From: Rhodocaloribacter litoris | Lineage (GTDB): Bacteria; Bacteroidota; Rhodothermia; Rhodothermales; ISCAR-4553 | Assembly (NCBI RefSeq): GCF_011682235.2 | Contig: NZ_CP076718.1 | Coordinates: 1,058,608-1,122,607 of the forward strand | Reading direction: 5' to 3' | Length of the DNA: 64,000 nt | Part shown: one piece after another, positions 31,369-40,413 of the stretch | Numbering within the stretch: the first letter of the stretch is position 1 | How the letters are laid out: each line of letters starts with the position of its first letter | Notes under the pieces: generated by a model | Seen by the model: only the letters and a program-made list of their open reading frames with translations | Database searches by the model: none | Told to the model about the DNA's origin: nothing | Program-made: the position numbers and the translations under genes

Positions 31369-32535
31369 ATGCGCAGAACGTTCAAATACCGCCTCTATCG
31401 ATCCAGGAAGAACAGGTACCTGATCGAGCAGATCCATGTGGCTGCGTCCATCTGGAACCACTCGGTTGCGCTCACGCGCAGGTACTACCGCCTCTACGGG
31501 AAATACCCCGGCGCGAACCGGCTGATGAAGCACATCGCTAAACTTCGCCGTCGCAATCCGTACTGGCAGAAGCTCGGTTCACAGGCCGTGCAGGACGTAA
31601 TCCAGCGACTCGACAGGGCCTACCAGCGCCTCTTCTCTGATCGCGCCGCGTCTGGACGCGGTCGCAAAGCCGGGCGGCCCGGTTTCAAGAGCCGACACCG
31701 GTACTCCTCGTTCACCTTGAAACAGGCTGGGTGGAAGTACCTCGGAGGTAACCGGCTCCGCGTAGGCCGCCACAATTTCAAGTTTGTCCTCTCTCGTCCG
31801 CTTGAGGGAGAGATCAAGACGCTGACCATCAAGCGTGACCGCTGCGGGGATCTGTGGGTTTGCTTCTCCGTCGTCGTTGCCGATGTCGCCCCTTCGGCAG
31901 TAGGCTGTAATGGCCACGCCGTTGGACTCGATTTCGGACTGAAGACGTTCCTGACGACCTCGGATGGAGACAGGTACGAAGCCCCACAGCCTCTCAAGCA
32001 GAGCCTTAAGGAGATGGCAAAGCGTCAGCGTAGTCTCTCCCGTAAGCTCCGAGGCTCGAACAACCGCCGCAAGGCCCGTATCCGTGTGGCCAGGCTGCAT
32101 CGCCGCATCGCAGATCAGCGGCGGGACTGGCATTTCAAGTTGGCCCACAAGATCTGCGACGGCGCCGACGTGATCTGCCTTGAAGATTTGAACCTGAAAG
32201 GGATGCAGGCCATGTGGGGCAGGAAGGTTGATGATCTCGGCTATGGGCAGTTCGTGTCGATTCTTCGGCATGTCGCACAGAAGCGCGGCAAGACCGTGGT
32301 GCAGGTGGATCGCTTCTTCGCCAGTAGCAAGACCTGCTCGGACTGCGGAGCCTTGAATCAGACGCTCAGCCTCTCGGATCGGGAATGGGTATGTGCTTCG
32401 TGCGGCAGTCTGCATGATCGCGATGTAAACGCGGCCATAAACATCTACAGGGAAGGGGCATCTTCCCTTGGGGTAGGCGACGTAAGACCGTCTACCACCC
32501 CACCGAGGTGGGGTGGGACGGCTGTCGCTGCCTGA
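31369..32535 (+). CDS. tnpB: RNA-guided endonuclease TnpB
   Basis: 388 residues, intact. N-terminal helix-rich and wedge region (RTFKYRLYRSRKN, GRPGFKSRHRYSSF), then a RuvC nuclease. RuvC-I Asp is in VGLDFGLKTFL, RuvC-II Glu in VICLEDLNLKGM, and RuvC-III Asp in LHDRDVNAAINIY. A zinc finger of four cysteines (CSDCG, CASCG) lies before RuvC-III. All three catalytic acids are present, so it should cut DNA next to the target-adjacent motif, guided by an RNA from the right end. The C-terminal 30 residues (after NIYREG) overlap the probable guide-RNA scaffold. Confidence 0.93.
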   Translation: MRRTFKYRLYRSRKNRYLIEQIHVAASIWNHSVALTRRYYRLYGKYPGANRLMKHIAKLRRRNPYWQKLGSQAVQDVIQRLDRAYQRLFSDRAASGRGRKAGRPGFKSRHRYSSFTLKQAGWKYLGGNRLRVGRHNFKFVLSRPLEGEIKTLTIKRDRCGDLWVCFSVVVADVAPSAVGCNGHAVGLDFGLKTFLTTSDGDRYEAPQPLKQSLKEMAKRQRSLSRKLRGSNNRRKARIRVARLHRRIADQRRDWHFKLAHKICDGADVICLEDLNLKGMQAMWGRKVDDLGYGQFVSILRHVAQKRGKTVVQVDRFFASSKTCSDCGALNQTLSLSDREWVCASCGSLHDRDVNAAINIYREGASSLGVGDVRPSTTPPRWGGTAVAA

Positions 32536-33306: not shown

Positions 33307-34782
33307 TTGCCGATGCTGATTTTTACGAACGCCCCTGCGGCTTCCTCTCCTACCCGCAACCCCTCTTTTCTGCACGCCCTTCGTCGCCTTGCGGACCGGC
33401 TGTTGCCTTCGGACTGGAGCCGAACCGAACGCCGGCAGGGCCGGCTCCTGCTGTTCAGCCTGTTGCTTTTGCTGGCGCCGGCCCTGTTTTCTCTGGGCCG
33501 GGCGATCGGAGCGGCGGGAACGTTCGACCTCACGGCCGGGGTTCTGGCCATGCAGGTGGGAATCCTGCTGTTGCTGGGCTGTGGCCTGTGGATCGGGGTT
33601 CGCCCCCGCCCCATAGGGAACCTGCTCGTCCTCTCGCTGGCCCTTTTCGCCGCCGCCTCGGTGGGGCCGGCCCGCAGCCCGGAGATCCCGCTGACCTACG
33701 GGCTCTTCACCCTTCCGCTGGCCGGGCTGCTGCTGGCCGGCCCGGTGACGGCGCTCGCTGCCGCCGGCCTGATCGGTCTGGCCTACCTCCCGTTCCCCCC
33801 CGTTCCGGTAGACCTCCGGACCGAGCACCTCACCGGCTTCCTGACCCTTTCGAGCCTGTTCCTGTGGACGGGCCTGGGCCTCGGCGGCTGGGGCTACGCC
33901 CTGCGACTGCAACACCGGCTGCGGCGGAGCCACACGTTGCTGCGACGGGCCCGGCAGGCTTCCTCCACCCGGCACGCCGCGTCCCCGGCCGCAGACGGTG
34001 CCGGAGAGCAACCCCCCGGACCAGACCAGGCCGCCGCCCTCGATGCGCTCCGGCGCCGGCACGAAGAGCTGGAACACCTGAAAAACACCCTGCTTTCGAA
34101 CCTGAGCCATGAGGTCCGCACCCCGCTGACCGGCATCCTCGGCTACGTCGCCATCCTCGAAGACCTGCTCGACGAGCCGGAACGCTCCCTGACCCAGCCC
34201 ATTCGCTTCAACGCCGAGCAACTGCTCGAAACCCTCAACGGCATGCTCGCCCTCGCCCACCTGGAGAAAGAGATGATGCACTTCCGGCCCCGACCCCTCG
34301 TGGCCGCCGAACAGGTGGAACATACGGTGCGCTCCTTCTATCGCCAGGCCCGCTCCAAAGGCCTGCGCTTCAACGTGCTGATCCACGACGCCGAGGCCTG
34401 CTCCCTGCTGGACCCCGACGGCTTCGACATGATCCTCTTCCACCTGCTCTCCAATGCCGTCAAGTTCACCGAAAAAGGCGGGATCCTGCTCGAAGTGCGG
34501 GCCGACGAAGACCGCGTGCACATCAGCGTGCACGACACCGGCATCGGTATCGAGCCGGACTTTCTGCCCCACCTGTTCGATCCCTTTCGCCAGGCTTCGA
34601 CCGGTGAAACCCGTCGCTTCCGGGGCAACGGCATCGGCCTGACGATCGTCAAGAAGCTGGTGGACCGCTTCAACGGAGAACTTACCGTGGCCAGTATCCC
34701 CGGCCAGGGCAGCGTCTTCACCGTGCGCTTCCCCCGGGTTCCCGCTCCCGGGAAAACGGCGCCGGTGCGTCTCGCCGCGTGA
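33307..34782 (+). CDS. Membrane sensor histidine kinase
   Basis: 491 residues. About six membrane helices between residues 45 and 200 (LLLFSLLLLLAPALFSL through LFLWTGLGLGGWGYAL) with almost no periplasmic loop, so it senses within the membrane or cytoplasm. A coiled linker leads to the H-box LLSNLSHEVRTPLTGIL (phospho-acceptor His), the N-box LLSNAVKFTEKGGI, G1 HDTGIGIEPDFLP, F-box FDPFRQAS and G2 GNGIGLTIVKKLVD. A complete kinase. Signal unknown. Pairs with the upstream receiver protein. Confidence 0.92.
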   Translation: MPMLIFTNAPAASSPTRNPSFLHALRRLADRLLPSDWSRTERRQGRLLLFSLLLLLAPALFSLGRAIGAAGTFDLTAGVLAMQVGILLLLGCGLWIGVRPRPIGNLLVLSLALFAAASVGPARSPEIPLTYGLFTLPLAGLLLAGPVTALAAAGLIGLAYLPFPPVPVDLRTEHLTGFLTLSSLFLWTGLGLGGWGYALRLQHRLRRSHTLLRRARQASSTRHAASPAADGAGEQPPGPDQAAALDALRRRHEELEHLKNTLLSNLSHEVRTPLTGILGYVAILEDLLDEPERSLTQPIRFNAEQLLETLNGMLALAHLEKEMMHFRPRPLVAAEQVEHTVRSFYRQARSKGLRFNVLIHDAEACSLLDPDGFDMILFHLLSNAVKFTEKGGILLEVRADEDRVHISVHDTGIGIEPDFLPHLFDPFRQASTGETRRFRGNGIGLTIVKKLVDRFNGELTVASIPGQGSVFTVRFPRVPAPGKTAPVRLAA

Positions 34783-34949
34783 AGCGATCCGAGGCCGGAG
34801 CCCGGCCGATCCGACCGCTTTCCGCAAAATGGAAGCGATTCCGGCAAAAAGAAAGCGGTTCCGGTACAAAAAGCCCCCTTGCCTCCGGGAACCCGCACGG
34901 CTATCTTCACGTCCGAGTGCCAAGTTTTTCCGCATCAGGCCCTTTCAAG

Positions 34950-35093
34950 ATGCCTCTTCCCCTCCACATGGATCGGCGCTTCGGCCCTGCCGGGTGTTGC
35001 AGCACCTGCGGGTGTTGTTGTATGCCCTGCGGTCCCGAACGCCGCCTGCGATCCGTGTGGTTGATGCGCTCCGCCTCTAGTCCCGGTTGTTGA
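34950..35093 (+). CDS. Cysteine-rich leader peptide of the sulfite reductase operon
   Basis: 47 residues from ATG 34950 (or 41 from ATG 34968). The middle is CCSTCGCCCMPC: seven Cys codons within twelve, plus one at the very end (PGC-stop). Outside this run nothing is conserved-looking. A Cys-codon run directly before a strong terminator hairpin and a cysteine-biosynthesis operon is the textbook layout of ribosome-mediated attenuation. A longer frame from GTG 34779 overlaps the histidine-kinase stop and is less likely to be the translated form. Confidence 0.65.
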   Translation: MPLPLHMDRRFGPAGCCSTCGCCCMPCGPERRLRSVWLMRSASSPGC

Positions 35094-35150
35094 AGACCGG
35101 CTCCATGTGCGCCGAAAGCCCACTCCCATCGCAGGGGGTGGGCTTTTTTC
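35083..35150 (+). promoter_or_regulatory. Attenuator: hairpin overlapping the leader stop plus intrinsic terminator
   Basis: A small hairpin CCGGT (35083-35087) / ACCGG (35096-35100) overlaps the leader-peptide stop. It is followed by a 13-bp stem, 35115-35127 with 35134-35146 (AAAGCCCAC... / ...GTGGGCTTT, one T-G pair, loop ATCGCA), and a T-run to 35149. This is the best intrinsic terminator in the window and ends 46 bases before the sulfite reductase ATG at 35196. An alternative antiterminator pairing could not be settled by eye. Confidence 0.75.
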
Positions 35151-35195
35151 ATGATGGTGCGCCTCCTGCTCCCGCACAACCCTTTTCAGAGAACG

Positions 35196-37529
35196 ATGCA
35201 CGAACCGACCTGGAAAGACCACCTGCACGACCGGATGCCCCCGGACCTGGCCCACGAGATCGACCTCTTCGAAGGCCAGATGGCCCTCATGCGCCAGGGC
35301 AAGCTGGACGAGAAGGTCTTTGCCGAGACGCGCCTGCGCCGGGGCGTCTACGGGCAGCGCTACGACAACGGCCAGCGCCACGACGGCCTCCGCACCCAGA
35401 CGCTCGACTTTCCCCAGGACCTCGTCAAGGGACCGAACACGCTGTGGGATGCGCCGGGCATGCAGCGCATCAAGATCCCCTTCGGCGGCCTGACGCCCGA
35501 GCAGATGGAGGTGCTGGCCCAGGTGGCCGACGCCTACGCCGACGGCATCCTGCACGTGACCACACGCCAGGACTTCCAGCTGCACTACGTCCACATCGAA
35601 GACACGCCGGACCTGATGCGACGCCTGGCCGCCGTGGGCATCACGACGCACGAGGCCTGCGGCAACGTCGTGCGCAACGTGACGGCCTGCCCCCTCGCCG
35701 GCGTCTGCCACACCGAGGCCTTCGACGTGACCCCCTACGCCCATGCCATGGCCCGCTTCCTGCTGGGCCACCCGGACGCACAGGACTTCGGGCGCAAGTT
35801 CAAGGTGGCCTTCTCCGGCTGCGCCCACACCGCCTGCGGCCTCGTCATGATGCACGACCTCGGCCTGCTGGCCCGGACCCGCCCCGACCCGGACGGCGGC
35901 CCGCCCCGGCGCGGCTTCGCCGTCTACGTCGGTGGCGGCCTCGGGGCCGTCCCCGAGCAGGCCAAGCTCCTGAGCGACTTCGTGCCCGAGGAGGAAATCC
36001 TGCCCCTGGCCCAGGCCATCGCCCGCGTCTTTGCCCGCCACGGCGAAAAGAAGAACCGCAACCGGGCCCGCATCAAGTTCCTCGTGGCCCAGCTCGGCAT
36101 CGAGGCCTTCCGCCGGCTGGTCGAGGAGGAACGGCAGGTGCTGCCGCCCGACGACCGCTGGACGGCCTACCTCGAGGCCGTGCCCGGCGCCACCGAGGAA
36201 CCCCACCGCCCCCCGCTGCTCCTCGACGGCGACGACCGGCCCGACGGCTTCGACGCCTGGTATGCCACGAACGTCTACCACCAGCGCCAGCCCGGCTACT
36301 GCGTCGCCACGATCCACCTGCCGCTGGGCGACCTGACGGCCCGCCAGATGATCGCCCTGGCCGACCTGGCCCGGCGCTATGCCGGCGGCCACGTCCGCAC
36401 CACCGTCGAGCAGAACATCGTCTTCCGCTGGGTGGCCGAGGCGGACCTGCCCGCCCTCTACCGCGACCTGAAGGCCCTTGGCCTGGGCGAACCGGGCGCC
36501 GGCACCATCGTCGACATCACGGCCTGCCCCGGCACCGACACGTGCAAGCTGGGCATCGCCTCCTCGCGCGGCCTCGCCGGCGAACTCATCACCCGCCTGA
36601 CCGCCCGCCGCGCCACGTTGCCCGAACCCGTCCGCAACCTGCGCATCAAGGTCAGCGGCTGCTTCAACTCGTGCGGCCAGCACCACGTGGCGGACATCGG
36701 CTTCTTCGGCAACAGCCGCAAGTCCGGCAACTACCGGGTGCCCTACTTCCAGGTGGTCCTCGGCGGGCAGTGGCAGCACAACGCGGGGCAGTACGGCATG
36801 GCCATCGGCTCGGTGCCGGCCCGGCTCATCCCGGACGTGGTCGACACCCTCACGACCCGCTACGTCGAGGACCATACCCCCGGCGAATCCTTCCAGGACT
36901 GGGTGAAACGGCTGGGCAAGGCCGGGGCCCGCGAGCTCATCCGCCCCTTCATGATCACCCCGGTCTACGAAGAACAGCCGGCGTTCTTCTCCGACTGGGG
37001 CGATCCCCGCGTCTTCACCCTGGGCGACCTGGGGGTGGGCGAATGTGCCGGCGAGGTCGTCTCCCTCTTCGCGATGGAGATCAGCAAGGCCGAATCGGAG
37101 CTGTTCGAGGCCCAGGAAGCCCTCGACCGGGGCGACTTCGCCCGCGCCGATGCACGCGCCTACCAGGCGATGCTCATGGCCGCCCGCGCCCTCGTCCGCA
37201 CCGAATACCTGGATGTGGGCGAGGACCCGGACCGCATCGTCGAAGCATTCCGGGCCCGCTTCTACGACACCGAGCGCTTCTTCGACCCCTTCGCGCGCGG
37301 CAAGTTTGCCCGCTACCTCTTCAGCCGGCACGAGCACCCGCCCGCCCGGGTGGACGAAGACGCGGCCCGCCGGATCGTGGACGAGGCCCAGCTCTTCATC
37401 GAGGCCACCCACGCCTGCGAGATGCGCATGAGCGAAGAGGCCGCCCGGAAGGCGGAAGAAGCCCGCCGGCAGGCCGCCCGGAACGAGCCCCGGCGAGAGG
37501 TCCTGCTCCCGCCCGGCTTCGCCTCCTGA
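35196..37529 (+). CDS. Assimilatory sulfite (or nitrite) reductase, siroheme/4Fe-4S type, with HEPN-like C-terminal extension
   Basis: 777 residues from ATG 35196 (MHEPTWKDHL); an in-frame ATG at 35151 lies inside the terminator region and is less likely. It has the duplicated ferredoxin-like half-domains of the family (DGILHVTTRQDFQLHYVH; GGHVRTTVEQNIVFRWV). The siroheme/cluster cysteines are in TACPGTDTCKLG (about 445, 451) and SGCFNSCGQHH (about 488, 492). The family ends near residue 600. Here about 150 more residues follow (MEISKAESELFEAQEALDRG ... AYQAMLMAARALV), resembling a HEPN helical domain. Gene context (CobA, precorrin-2 dehydrogenase, APS/PAPS reductase) favours sulfite over nitrite. 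Confidence 0.9.
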   Translation: MHEPTWKDHLHDRMPPDLAHEIDLFEGQMALMRQGKLDEKVFAETRLRRGVYGQRYDNGQRHDGLRTQTLDFPQDLVKGPNTLWDAPGMQRIKIPFGGLTPEQMEVLAQVADAYADGILHVTTRQDFQLHYVHIEDTPDLMRRLAAVGITTHEACGNVVRNVTACPLAGVCHTEAFDVTPYAHAMARFLLGHPDAQDFGRKFKVAFSGCAHTACGLVMMHDLGLLARTRPDPDGGPPRRGFAVYVGGGLGAVPEQAKLLSDFVPEEEILPLAQAIARVFARHGEKKNRNRARIKFLVAQLGIEAFRRLVEEERQVLPPDDRWTAYLEAVPGATEEPHRPPLLLDGDDRPDGFDAWYATNVYHQRQPGYCVATIHLPLGDLTARQMIALADLARRYAGGHVRTTVEQNIVFRWVAEADLPALYRDLKALGLGEPGAGTIVDITACPGTDTCKLGIASSRGLAGELITRLTARRATLPEPVRNLRIKVSGCFNSCGQHHVADIGFFGNSRKSGNYRVPYFQVVLGGQWQHNAGQYGMAIGSVPARLIPDVVDTLTTRYVEDHTPGESFQDWVKRLGKAGARELIRPFMITPVYEEQPAFFSDWGDPRVFTLGDLGVGECAGEVVSLFAMEISKAESELFEAQEALDRGDFARADARAYQAMLMAARALVRTEYLDVGEDPDRIVEAFRARFYDTERFFDPFARGKFARYLFSRHEHPPARVDEDAARRIVDEAQLFIEATHACEMRMSEEAARKAEEARRQAARNEPRREVLLPPGFAS

Positions 37530-37557: not shown

Positions 37558-38163
37558 ATGCTCCCCCATCGCCTCCGCGTCAAATACTTTCTCGAAGACC
37601 CGTCCGCCCCGCCGTTCGACGCGATCGTGCCGGTCTTTCACCGGTGGATCCAGCAGCGCCGCGTCGAGGAGTTGCTGATCGACGTGGCCAACTACCGGCA
37701 CGTCCACGAAGGCCCTGGCATCGTGCTCATCGGCCACGAGGCCGACTATGCCCTCGACCACGGGGGACGACCCGGCCTGGCCTATACGCGCAAGCGCGAC
37801 CTGACGGCCGGCGCCGGTGACGACCTGGCCGCCGCGCTCCACCTCGCCCTGGGACAGGCCCTGAACGCCTGTCACCTCCTGGCGACGGAGCCCGAGCTGG
37901 CCGGCCGGGTCGCCTTTCGCACGGATGAGGTGGAGATCACCTTCTTCGACCTGCTCCGCCACCCCAACACGGCGGCGACGGCCGGGCGGCTCGCCCCGGT
38001 GATCCGGGCCGTGGCGGCGGAACGCTACGGCCGCGAGCCGGCCCGCCTCGAGCGGGTCCACGACGACCCCCGCTTCCACCTGACGCTGCGCCTGGCCTTC
38101 CCCGACGCGCCCCCGCTGGCGGCGTTGCGCGATCGTCTCCCGCTGTCCTCAGAAACCCCATGA
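37558..38163 (+). CDS. Conserved-looking protein of unknown function in the sulfur operon
   Basis: 201 residues, no signal peptide or membrane helix. Not recognised. Notable segments: FDAIVPVFHRWIQQRRVEEL, LIDVANYRHVHEGPGIVLIG, HEADYALDHGGRPGLAYTRK and EITFFDLLRHPNT. It starts 28 bp after sulfite reductase and overlaps cobA (ATGA), so it is locked inside the sulfite-reduction/siroheme operon. A role as an assembly or electron-transfer helper of sulfite reductase is possible but only a guess from position. Confidence 0.7.
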   Translation: MLPHRLRVKYFLEDPSAPPFDAIVPVFHRWIQQRRVEELLIDVANYRHVHEGPGIVLIGHEADYALDHGGRPGLAYTRKRDLTAGAGDDLAAALHLALGQALNACHLLATEPELAGRVAFRTDEVEITFFDLLRHPNTAATAGRLAPVIRAVAAERYGREPARLERVHDDPRFHLTLRLAFPDAPPLAALRDRLPLSSETP

Positions 38164-38975
38164 ACACGCTTACCCTCGCACAACCCGGAACCGTCTACCT
38201 GGTCGGCGCCGGACCGGGAGACCCGTCGCTCATCACCGTGCGCGGCCTCTCGCTGCTGCGCCAGGCCGGGGTGGTCGTCTATGACCGGCTGGTGCACCCG
38301 GCCCTGCCGGCGGAGGCTCCCGCCGGGGCCGAACGGATCTACGTGGGCAAGGCCCCGGGCCGGCACAGCTGCCCGCAGGCGACGATCAACGCGCTGCTCA
38401 TCGCCCAGGCCCGGGCCGGCAAGGTGGTCGTCCGGCTCAAGGGCGGCGACCCGTTCGTCTTTGGCCGGGGCGGTGAGGAGGCGCTGGCGCTGGCCGAGGC
38501 CGGCGTGCCGTTCGAAGTGGTGCCCGGCGTCACGAGTGCGGTCAGCGTGCCGGCCTATGCAGGCATCCCCGTCACCCACCGCGGCCTGAGCAGCGCCTTC
38601 ACGGTCGTCACCGGTCACACCTGCGATGCCGCCGAACCGGACTGGGCCGCCCTCGCCCGGGCGGGTACGCTCGTCATCCTGATGGGCCTGCGACGCCTGC
38701 CCGAGATCGCCCGGCACCTTCAGGACGGCGGGCTCCCCCCGGCCACCCCCGTGGCCGTCATCCACAGCGGCACCACCGCCGGGCAGGCGGTCGTCACCGG
38801 CACGCTGGCCGACATCGGCGAGCGGACCCGCCACCTGGCCTCACCGGCCACGATCGTCGTCGGCGAGGTCGCCCGGCTGCACGCCGCCCTGGCCTGGTTC
38901 ACGCCGCCGGCCGATCCTCCGGAAACCGCCGTGCCCGCACGTCCCGCGCGCCCGGCGCTTGCCGTCCCTGCCTGA
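38160..38975 (+). CDS. cobA: Uroporphyrinogen-III C-methyltransferase
   Basis: 271 residues. Makes precorrin-2 with two SAM-dependent methylations, the branch point to siroheme. Motifs: VYLVGAGPGDPSLITVRGL, VVVYDRLV, VRLKGGDPFVFGRGGEE, VVPGVTSAVSVPAYAGIPVTHRG, and TLVILMGLRRL. The C-terminal about 25 residues are Pro/Ala-rich and not conserved. Provides siroheme for the adjacent sulfite reductase together with the precorrin-2 dehydrogenase two genes downstream. Confidence 0.95.
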   Translation: MNTLTLAQPGTVYLVGAGPGDPSLITVRGLSLLRQAGVVVYDRLVHPALPAEAPAGAERIYVGKAPGRHSCPQATINALLIAQARAGKVVVRLKGGDPFVFGRGGEEALALAEAGVPFEVVPGVTSAVSVPAYAGIPVTHRGLSSAFTVVTGHTCDAAEPDWAALARAGTLVILMGLRRLPEIARHLQDGGLPPATPVAVIHSGTTAGQAVVTGTLADIGERTRHLASPATIVVGEVARLHAALAWFTPPADPPETAVPARPARPALAVPA

Positions 38976-38995: not shown

Positions 38996-39721
38996 ATGAA
39001 CGATCCCAAGCAGCCTCCCTTCCCACCGGAAACCCTCCGCGCCCTCTCCGACGACTTCGCCCGGCGCTCCCCCCGGGAACTGCTGCGCTGGGGTTTCGAC
39101 ACCTTCGGCGACGACATGGTCCTGGGCACCGGCTTCGGTCCCTCCGGCATCGTCCTGACCCACCTCGTCGCCACCCTCAAGCCCGACGCCACCATCTTTT
39201 ACCTGGACACCGACCTGCTCTTCCCCGAAACCTACGCCCTCCGGGACCGGCTCGAGGAACGCCTCGGCGTGACCTTCACCCGGGTGACGACGGAGCTCTC
39301 CCTGGACGAGCAGGCCCGCCGGCACGGCCCCGAACTCTGGCGTCGCGACCCGGACCGCTGCTGCTTCCTGCGCAAGGTGCTCCCGCTGCGGCGCTTTCTG
39401 GAAGGCCGCCGCGCCTGGGTCACCGGCCTGCGCCGCGACCAGTCGACGGCGCGTGCGGGGGTGCCCCTGCTCGCCTGGGAACCGGCTTACGGCGTCGTCA
39501 AGCTCAACCCGCTGGCGCACTGGACCAGCGAGGACGTGTGGAGCTACCTCCAGCTGCACGACCTGCCCTACAACCCCCTGCACGACCGGGGCTACCCGAG
39601 CCTGGGCTGCCTCCCCTGCACCGCGCCCGTCCCCGAAGGCGCCGACGAACGCGCCGGTCGCTGGGCCGGCTTCGACAAGACCGAGTGCGGCATCCACGTC
39701 CCCTCCCACCAGGCGGCCTGA
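38996..39721 (+). CDS. cysH: Adenylyl-/phosphoadenylyl-sulfate reductase, 4Fe-4S type
   Basis: 241 residues. Reduces APS (or PAPS) to sulfite using thioredoxin. The P-loop-like GTGFGPSGIVL is at 44-54 and FYLDTDLLFPETY at 68-80. The iron-sulfur cysteines are Cys122-Cys123 (RCCFLRKV) and Cys205/Cys208 (LGCLPCTAP). Their presence points to the APS-using type. GLRRDQSTAR and the catalytic C-terminal ECGIH (Cys231) are intact. No ATP sulfurylase or APS kinase gene is in the window. Confidence 0.93.
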   Translation: MNDPKQPPFPPETLRALSDDFARRSPRELLRWGFDTFGDDMVLGTGFGPSGIVLTHLVATLKPDATIFYLDTDLLFPETYALRDRLEERLGVTFTRVTTELSLDEQARRHGPELWRRDPDRCCFLRKVLPLRRFLEGRRAWVTGLRRDQSTARAGVPLLAWEPAYGVVKLNPLAHWTSEDVWSYLQLHDLPYNPLHDRGYPSLGCLPCTAPVPEGADERAGRWAGFDKTECGIHVPSHQAA

Positions 39722-39747: not shown

Positions 39748-40413
39748 ATGAACGTCTATCCGATCTTTCTGAACGACCTGGCCGGCCGGCGGTGCGTGGT
39801 CTTCGGCGGCAACCATGAGGCCGAGCGCAAGGTGCGGGAGCTGCTCGACCTCGGCGCGGACGTCGTCCTGATCGCGCCGGCGCCGGAGGCGAGGCTGCGG
39901 GCGCTGGCCGAGGACGGCCGCCTGACCTGGCACGCACGGGCGTACGTGCCAGGCGACCTGCAGGGCGCTTTCCTCGCCATCGTCGCCGAGCGCAACCCGG
40001 AGGCGACCGCCCCCATCTACCGGGAGGCACAGGCCGAGAAGGTGCTCATCAACGCCATGGACGACGTGCCGCACTGTACGTTCGTGGCCGGCTCGGTCGT
40101 CCGGCAGGGAGCCCTGACGATCGCCATCTCGACAGCCGGCGCCGCCCCCGCCCTCTCGGTGCGCCTGCGCGAGCGCTTCGAGCAGGCCTTCGGGCCCGAG
40201 TACGCCGCCTTCCTCGACCTGATGCGGGCCCTCCGCGCACCGATGGCCACACGCTACCCGGACTTCGAGGAGCGCCGCCGCCGCTGGTACGCCCTGGTCG
40301 ACGGGGACGTGCTCGCGCTGCTCCGCGCCGGCCGCCGCGAAGAAGCCCTCGACCGGATCGAGGCGCTGACCGGCCTCCGCGTGCCGGAGCGCGAAACCGC
40401 CCCCGAACGATAG
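39748..40413 (+). CDS. Precorrin-2 dehydrogenase / sirohydrochlorin ferrochelatase (CysG N-terminal type)
   Basis: 221 residues. Completes siroheme synthesis: NAD-dependent oxidation of precorrin-2, and possibly iron insertion as in Met8p. The N-terminal Rossmann fold begins YPIFLNDLAGRRCVVFGGNH; the glycine loop is less canonical than GGGxVA (GGNHEAE). Then come VLINAMDDVPHCTFVAGSVVRQ and the family motif LTIAISTAGAAPALSVRLRE. Last gene of the sulfur operon, 26 bp after cysH. A separate ferrochelatase cannot be excluded. Confidence 0.9.
   Translation: MNVYPIFLNDLAGRRCVVFGGNHEAERKVRELLDLGADVVLIAPAPEARLRALAEDGRLTWHARAYVPGDLQGAFLAIVAERNPEATAPIYREAQAEKVLINAMDDVPHCTFVAGSVVRQGALTIAISTAGAAPALSVRLRERFEQAFGPEYAAFLDLMRALRAPMATRYPDFEERRRRWYALVDGDVLALLRAGRREEALDRIEALTGLRVPERETAPER

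Follow-up and report, generated by a model that had tools for sequence, protein, structure and literature searches.

Attenuation by leader peptides is not confined to a single amino acid, since the classical attenuator thrL carries two codon types, for Thr and Ile, matching two end products of a shared pathway. For cysteine and methionine, four described systems come closest to the locus reported here, and they are summarized below. In Rhodobacterales, the uORFC-8-2 motif upstream of cysS combines tandem Cys codons (14-15) in a short uORF with a downstream intrinsic terminator, and is predicted to attenuate transcription in response to charged tRNA(Cys) (PMC8632094). Cys leader peptides have been described for actinobacterial cys operons, including those of Mycobacterium and Propionibacterium acnes and cbs of Bifidobacterium longum (PMC1262725), and cysteine-responsive attenuation has been reported for mycobacterial polycysteine uORFs (Canestrari 2020). 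The metL leader of Streptomyces lividans, located before metNIQ, has alternating Met and Cys residues (..ARCMCRRMCAF) (PMC8079986).

The locus analyzed here lies in a 64-kb stretch (hereafter the window) of a complete 4.50-Mb genome (G000), and very probably contains a ribosome-mediated transcription attenuator of an assimilatory sulfate/sulfite-reduction operon, judging from its sequence features and those of its relatives. It shares with uORFC-8-2 a short Cys-codon uORF followed by an intrinsic terminator, but the latter is alphaproteobacterial, precedes the cysteinyl-tRNA synthetase gene and has two Cys codons, whereas here a sulfur-assimilation operon follows, the Cys runs are longer and mixed with Met, and the lineages are others (PMC8632094). 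With a NIR_SIR gene downstream and relatives among Rhodothermia, Chloroflexota and Acidobacteria MAGs, the present leader falls outside uORFC-8-2; sequence likeness between the two was judged solely by the lack of an Rfam gathering-level match. The actinobacterial leaders are likewise short ORFs with Cys codon runs before cysteine or sulfur operons, but their runs are near the stop codon and no conserved terminator accompanies them, whereas here there are an intrinsic terminator and a candidate antiterminator (PMC1262725). Our leader also differs from the mycobacterial polycysteine type: 20 codons separate the end of its Cys run from the stop, with a further Cys at codon 47, and a terminator follows it. 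The metL leader resembles it in Met/Cys alternation, but precedes genes for methionine import and has no clear terminator, and its authors noted the methionines and threonines rather than the cysteines (PMC8079986).

The initial annotation of this DNA had pointed to Cys-rich leader peptides at sulfur genes in some actinobacteria and was aware of none described in the present lineage. The first point is borne out by the literature and extends to cysS of Rhodobacterales (PMC1262725; PMC8632094). On the second, our literature search, in which subscription papers were thinly covered, turned up neither a Cys nor a Cys-Met leader reported from Rhodothermia, and no Cys leader with a terminator described ahead of sulfite reductase or cysH. 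As far as this search shows, novelty lies in the lineage, in the target operon and its classical terminators, in the tandem units and in the interleaving of Met codons.

The leader ORF, the terminator and the operon

The operon encodes functions in sulfate/sulfite reduction together with siroheme synthesis (Table 1). A sulfite reductase gene had originally been placed after the terminator. Pfam indeed identifies a NIR_SIR gene there, with a start at 35196 that is backed by orthologues beginning at the same position, but the word sulfite derives from the operon context: because no NCBIfam equivalog reaches its cut-off for this protein (the best is the NirA family), the name rests on the presence of cobA, cysH and the gene for the cysG N-terminal domain protein. 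The product, at 777 aa, exceeds usual sulfite/nitrite reductases in length, and its extra C-terminal part is matched in most orthologues. The 201-aa ORF, found beside the reductase in most related loci by tblastn, is possibly a partner subunit. Elsewhere in the window (31369-32535), a 388-aa ORF with a C-terminal CxxC pattern has, by eye, the look of a TnpB-type transposon protein.

Table 1. Features of the leader region and the downstream operon (positions within the window).
Feature	Position	Strand	Basis
Candidate promoter TTGCCT-N17-TATCTT (weak)	34879..34907	+	By eye
Leader peptide ORF, 47 codons	34950..35093	+	ORF listing; analogous leaders in relatives
Regulatory codon run CCSTCGCCCMPC (codons 16-27: 7 Cys, 1 Met)	34995..35030	+	Sequence; Cys/Met run kept in relatives
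Candidate antiterminator 5' strand, within leader ORF between Cys run and stop	35046..35070	+	Duplex prediction (p=0.18 alone)
Small hairpin CCGGTT/GACCGG, stop codon in loop	35083..35100	+	Folding
Candidate antiterminator 3' strand (terminator 5' arm and loop)	35108..35133	+	Duplex prediction
Intrinsic terminator: 14-bp stem, loop ATCGCA, U-run 35144-35149	35114..35149	+	Folding, scan
NIR_SIR-family siroheme reductase, probable assimilatory sulfite reductase, operon gene 1	35196..37529	+	Pfam; NCBIfam below cut-offs; PDB sequence search
Operon ORF, 201 aa, without Pfam or NCBIfam match	37558..38163	+	Adjoins reductase in most related loci
cobA, uroporphyrinogen-III C-methyltransferase (siroheme synthesis)	38160..38975	+	NCBIfam
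cysH, phosphoadenylyl-sulfate reductase	38996..39721	+	Pfam, NCBIfam
cysG N-terminal domain protein (siroheme synthase)	39748..40413	+	NCBIfam

The leader ORF extends from an ATG at 34950 to a TGA at 35091-35093 and encodes the 47-aa peptide MPLPLHMDRRFGPAGCCSTCGCCCMPCGPERRLRSVWLMRSASSPGC. Its Cys codons are 16, 17, 20, 22, 23, 24 and 27, confirming the seven within twelve of the original description, and also 47; Met occupies codons 7, 25 and 39. An alternative in-frame start is the ATG at 34968, and no Shine-Dalgarno sequence is evident for the ORF. At the stricter threshold of a consensus scan, no promoter was found upstream of the leader.

The terminator hairpin (arms 35114-35127 and 35134-35147) has a GC-rich 10-bp core, and terminal G-U and A-U pairs extend the stem into the T-run. 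A terminator stem with a T-run after the leader stop thus stood up to re-examination, but the spacing of 22 bases first given for it did not: the hairpin starts 20 nt past the stop codon. The reductase start lies 46 nt beyond the T-run. RNA 34900-35200 folds more than expected by chance (z=-4.0), and no Rfam 15 riboswitch, T-box or leader family matches at gathering score anywhere in the window. The arrangement resembles that of a ribosome-mediated attenuator of the trp/his type: a short ORF, rich in codons for the product of the pathway, lies ahead of the sulfate/sulfite-reduction operon, and an intrinsic terminator separates its stop codon from the first structural gene.

Leader-terminator units in the order, the class and other phyla

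Using a threshold of at least three Cys in eight codons, we detected leaders upstream of the siroheme reductase gene in 16 of the 22 genomes that carry it in the window's own order, that of Rhodothermus-like bacteria, and in three of four genomes of family f20. The scan was negative for all 16 in family f16 and for 13 loci from other Bacteroidota; eight further matches from outside the class, for which no locus was given, lay outside the scan. Six order genomes were under the threshold, namely G030 (nothing), G024, G034 and G055 (CMCM), G051 (CRCM) and G106 (weak), and inspection by eye recognized a Cys(-Met) leader in 21 of the 22. At the genus level, leaders recur in nine of the ten order genera with the reductase. 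Among the close reductase orthologues (67-75% identity; G007, G009, G021 and G030), the first three have, ahead of the gene, a short ORF whose Cys run reads CCCVDNTCCM, CCMC and CCCCM, respectively, and then a hairpin with a U-run; the leader is absent from G030, whose reductase is 70-71% identical.

A shorter type of reductase found in the order and class also has leaders upstream (genera g15, g4 and g14, genomes G006 and G008, and family f20). Their motifs include CMCMCMCM in G014 (genus g15), CPCGACGCMCM in G006, CCMCLCDGMCMCCC in G008, RCCCMG-stop in g4, MEICLCSSCRMATC in g14 and MCCM in f20. The full layout of Cys leader and terminator precedes the shorter reductase in G006, G008 and genus g15, and the layout is found before the reductase in all four reductase-bearing f20 genomes. 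Terminators are clear in these and in the window, G007, G009 and G021; the Cys-Met ORFs of g4 and g14 have no obvious terminator. As in an attenuator, the regulatory codons are conserved between genera and the remainder of the peptide is variable. The initial annotation had staked its reading in part on conservation of the Cys codons and hairpin in relatives; both recur at orthologous or analogous positions, and the attempted refutation failed.

Units of this kind extend beyond the lineage, which, together with the Met codons discussed below, goes further than the original description. In Chloroflexota, leader-terminator units precede the reductase in two loci (L051 and L055) and cysH, at the head of the operon, in four (L050, L053, L054 and L087), each of which has two in tandem; a unit before cysH is also present in an Acidobacteria MAG (L080). 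The tandem units are located at L050:2122-2461, L053:2076-2392, L054:2099-2406 and L087:1979-2303. An antiterminator helix is common to the second units, and the T-run of those in L053, L054 and L087 is less perfect. Most Caldilineaceae loci, where no cysH was found nearby, have no leader. In SAR324 MAGs (L060, L062), as well as in L047 and L048, there are ORFs that end in poly-Cys but have no strong terminator; these are closer to the actinobacterial and mycobacterial type. In the SAR324 loci (L062:5480-6003, with two in tandem, and L060:5680-6003), the Cys runs directly precede the stop codon, resembling the mycobacterial polycysteine type. The MAG of L051, whose reductase gene is preceded by a Cys leader, has a further poly-Cys ORF (CCTSCCCPCTCCTCC-stop) ahead of cysH, at L051:12280-12379. 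At L032:4233 we discarded a poly-Cys ORF that, in our judgement, looks like a Leu-rich membrane segment read out of frame.

This distribution bears on whether the ORF might instead encode a small protein, rich in Cys and functional in metal or redox binding, that the terminator merely separates from the operon. The Cys content is high and the spacing in some leaders is CxxC-like, as such a protein would have; however, the peptides differ between genera in both length and sequence, Cys and Met excepted, several Chloroflexota have the leader duplicated in tandem with a terminator for each copy, and the distance from ORF to terminator is regular. We consider a small-protein function highly unlikely.

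Chance is a further consideration, given that Cys-rich frames are common in GC-rich DNA and that the histidine kinase gene ending at 34782 needs a terminator somewhere, which the hairpin could supply. At least three Cys in eight codons were present in 146 of 1295 control stretches of 600 nt (11.3%), and the window has 11 stop-to-stop frames with at least four Cys in eight codons. Among these 11, however, a strong terminator within 110 nt follows the leader ORF only (-25.9 kcal/mol), and one other frame has a weak hairpin (-10.7). The hairpin is, moreover, about 330 nt past the histidine kinase gene, and the recurrence in the order, with the same function downstream in other phyla, argues against coincidence. 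Upstream of orthologous reductases, at least four Cys in eight codons were found in 8 of 62 distinct loci vs 52 of 6887 control stretches from the same loci, a contrast that is conservative because the controls include some operon-head leaders found later. The 62 loci represent 64 rows (9 of them positive) after two duplicates from the same genomes were merged (L032/L003 and L079/L004), and L081, L084 and L085 were left out of the upstream counts because the contig starts inside the gene. Coincidence is the least probable of the explanations that we weighed. We also ran the pattern TGYTGYTGYATG in five genomes and inspected the Cys clusters in 20 of its 75 matches (those with loci given). No second leader was recognized among its four matches in the window's own genome, and in G021 a control pattern was as frequent as TGYTGYTGYATG.

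Candidate antiterminator and proposed mechanism

For 24 leader-terminator units, we predicted pairing between the 5' half of the terminator, extended upstream by 10 nt, and the sequence from the Cys run to the terminator, with 1000 dinucleotide shuffles of the latter as reference; such shuffles are not phylogenetic controls. The predicted duplex was individually significant (p<0.05) in 12 of the 24 units. Combined by Fisher's method, p was about 6e-8 over 15 representatives, 6e-7 over 13 when a related pair was dropped, and 0.0011 over the eight from Rhodothermia. The window duplex alone gave p=0.18 (0.31 with a narrower terminator definition) and that of G006 gave 0.46, so that antiterminator pairing is supported collectively across units and weakly by the window alone. 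The 5' strands lie mostly in the last leader codons (-48 to +7 relative to the end of the stop codon; the exception, L055, reaches +28). A ribosome positioned at the stop would cover them there, but this placement is in part imposed by the choice of search stretch. In G009, GCGUGUUACCUG pairs with CAGGUAAUGCGC (12 bp). Four-sequence alignments gave an antiterminator of 14 bp with all 56 cells paired for the tandem second units and one of 13 bp with 48 of 50 cells paired for f20, each with one double compensatory change; by shuffling, the double-change counts in these two alignments are not significant, the sequences being too few.

Folding with a ribosome placed in the Cys run, a check proposed in the initial annotation, gave a mixed outcome for the window itself: the predicted equilibrium probability of the terminator falls to 0.41 for a stall at C24 and 0.46 at M25, the only stalls at which it is lost, from 0.98 with the ribosome at the stop, but the window's own duplex does not significantly exceed shuffles. 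By the same equilibrium test, 9 of the 24 units, the window included, were positive (some Cys or Met stall below 0.6, stop at least 0.9). In the other 15, the terminator probability stays at roughly 0.6 or higher wherever the ribosome stalls on Cys or Met, and the switch there, if real, must therefore be kinetic.

Control by Cys codons might also proceed without an antiterminator, a stalled or absent ribosome altering how Rho gains access or how translation of the next gene is initiated, while the hairpin acts as an upstream boundary or pause. The same mode has been proposed or shown for mycobacterial polycysteine uORFs, and the actinobacterial precedents are mostly without terminators (PMC1262725). 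The g4 and g14 leaders, and the SAR324 and L047/L048 units with Cys runs at the very end of the ORF, could be accommodated as well. Against this, strong terminators stand at comparable distances past the stop in the window and in many relatives, and pairing of the 5' arm collectively exceeds that of shuffled sequences; we regard this mode as unlikely for the present locus. The amino-acid attenuation first proposed for it is supported by the recurrence of leader and terminator in relatives and by the collective significance of antiterminator pairing.

From the ORF, the Cys run, the terminator, the operon content, the recurrence and the collective antiterminator excess, we infer translation, stalling and readthrough as follows. 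Transcription would start upstream of 34950 and a ribosome would translate the leader. When charged Cys-tRNA(Cys) is available, the ribosome would get to the stop codon and cover the codons just before it, the hairpin would form, and RNA polymerase would halt in the U-run. With charged Cys-tRNA in short supply, the ribosome would stall within CCSTCGCCCMPC, leaving leader codons at about 35046-35070 free to pair with the 5' arm and loop of the terminator; with this antiterminator formed, transcription would continue into the reductase gene, cobA, cysH and the cysG N-terminal domain gene. With less certainty, the Met codon beside the Cys run, found in relatives too, may let the leader respond to methionine starvation as well.

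Methionine codons and biological significance

Met is frequent in the leaders, accounting for 32 of 316 residues after the start (10.1%) in ten Rhodothermia leaders vs 1.5% in six proteins of the window (2390 residues), with the proviso that the ten were picked by us, one per genus, and that Met was counted in selecting or ranking some candidates, which could favour it. All ten representatives nevertheless reach at least three Cys in eight codons by Cys alone. Independently of the choice of start, Met makes up 21 of the 87 non-Cys residues within two codons of a Cys in Rhodothermia, and 2 of 53 in seven leaders from other phyla. Met codons are placed before, between and after the Cys codons.

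Sulfide feeds cysteine and methionine synthesis alike, which makes dual Cys/Met sensing a natural reading, and the interleaved Met codons of the Rhodothermia leaders suggest such sensing; the AUG triplets may alternatively have a role in RNA pairing or as alternative starts. The parallel with thrL would lie in two codon types for two end products, here the sulfur amino acids. In a wider picture, which we hold to be quite possible, the Rhodothermia leader would be a dual sensor (CCCM, MCCM, CMCMCMCM) through which either shortage opens the operon, and the Cys-leader principle would have arisen or spread in several phyla, sometimes with two attenuators in series.

Most likely, the leader and terminator form a switch that opens the operon only under cysteine, and perhaps methionine, shortage. 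If so, sulfate assimilation would be under the control of Cys(-Met) leader translation, either in place of a CysB-like regulator or a SAM riboswitch or in addition to one, and transcription attenuation by cysteine with intrinsic terminators would be placed in Rhodothermia, Chloroflexota and Acidobacteriota. The system would also offer a simple model for a single leader that reads two sulfur amino acids, and the short leader sequences would be possible markers of assimilatory, as opposed to nitrite-reducing, function among poorly annotated siroheme reductases.
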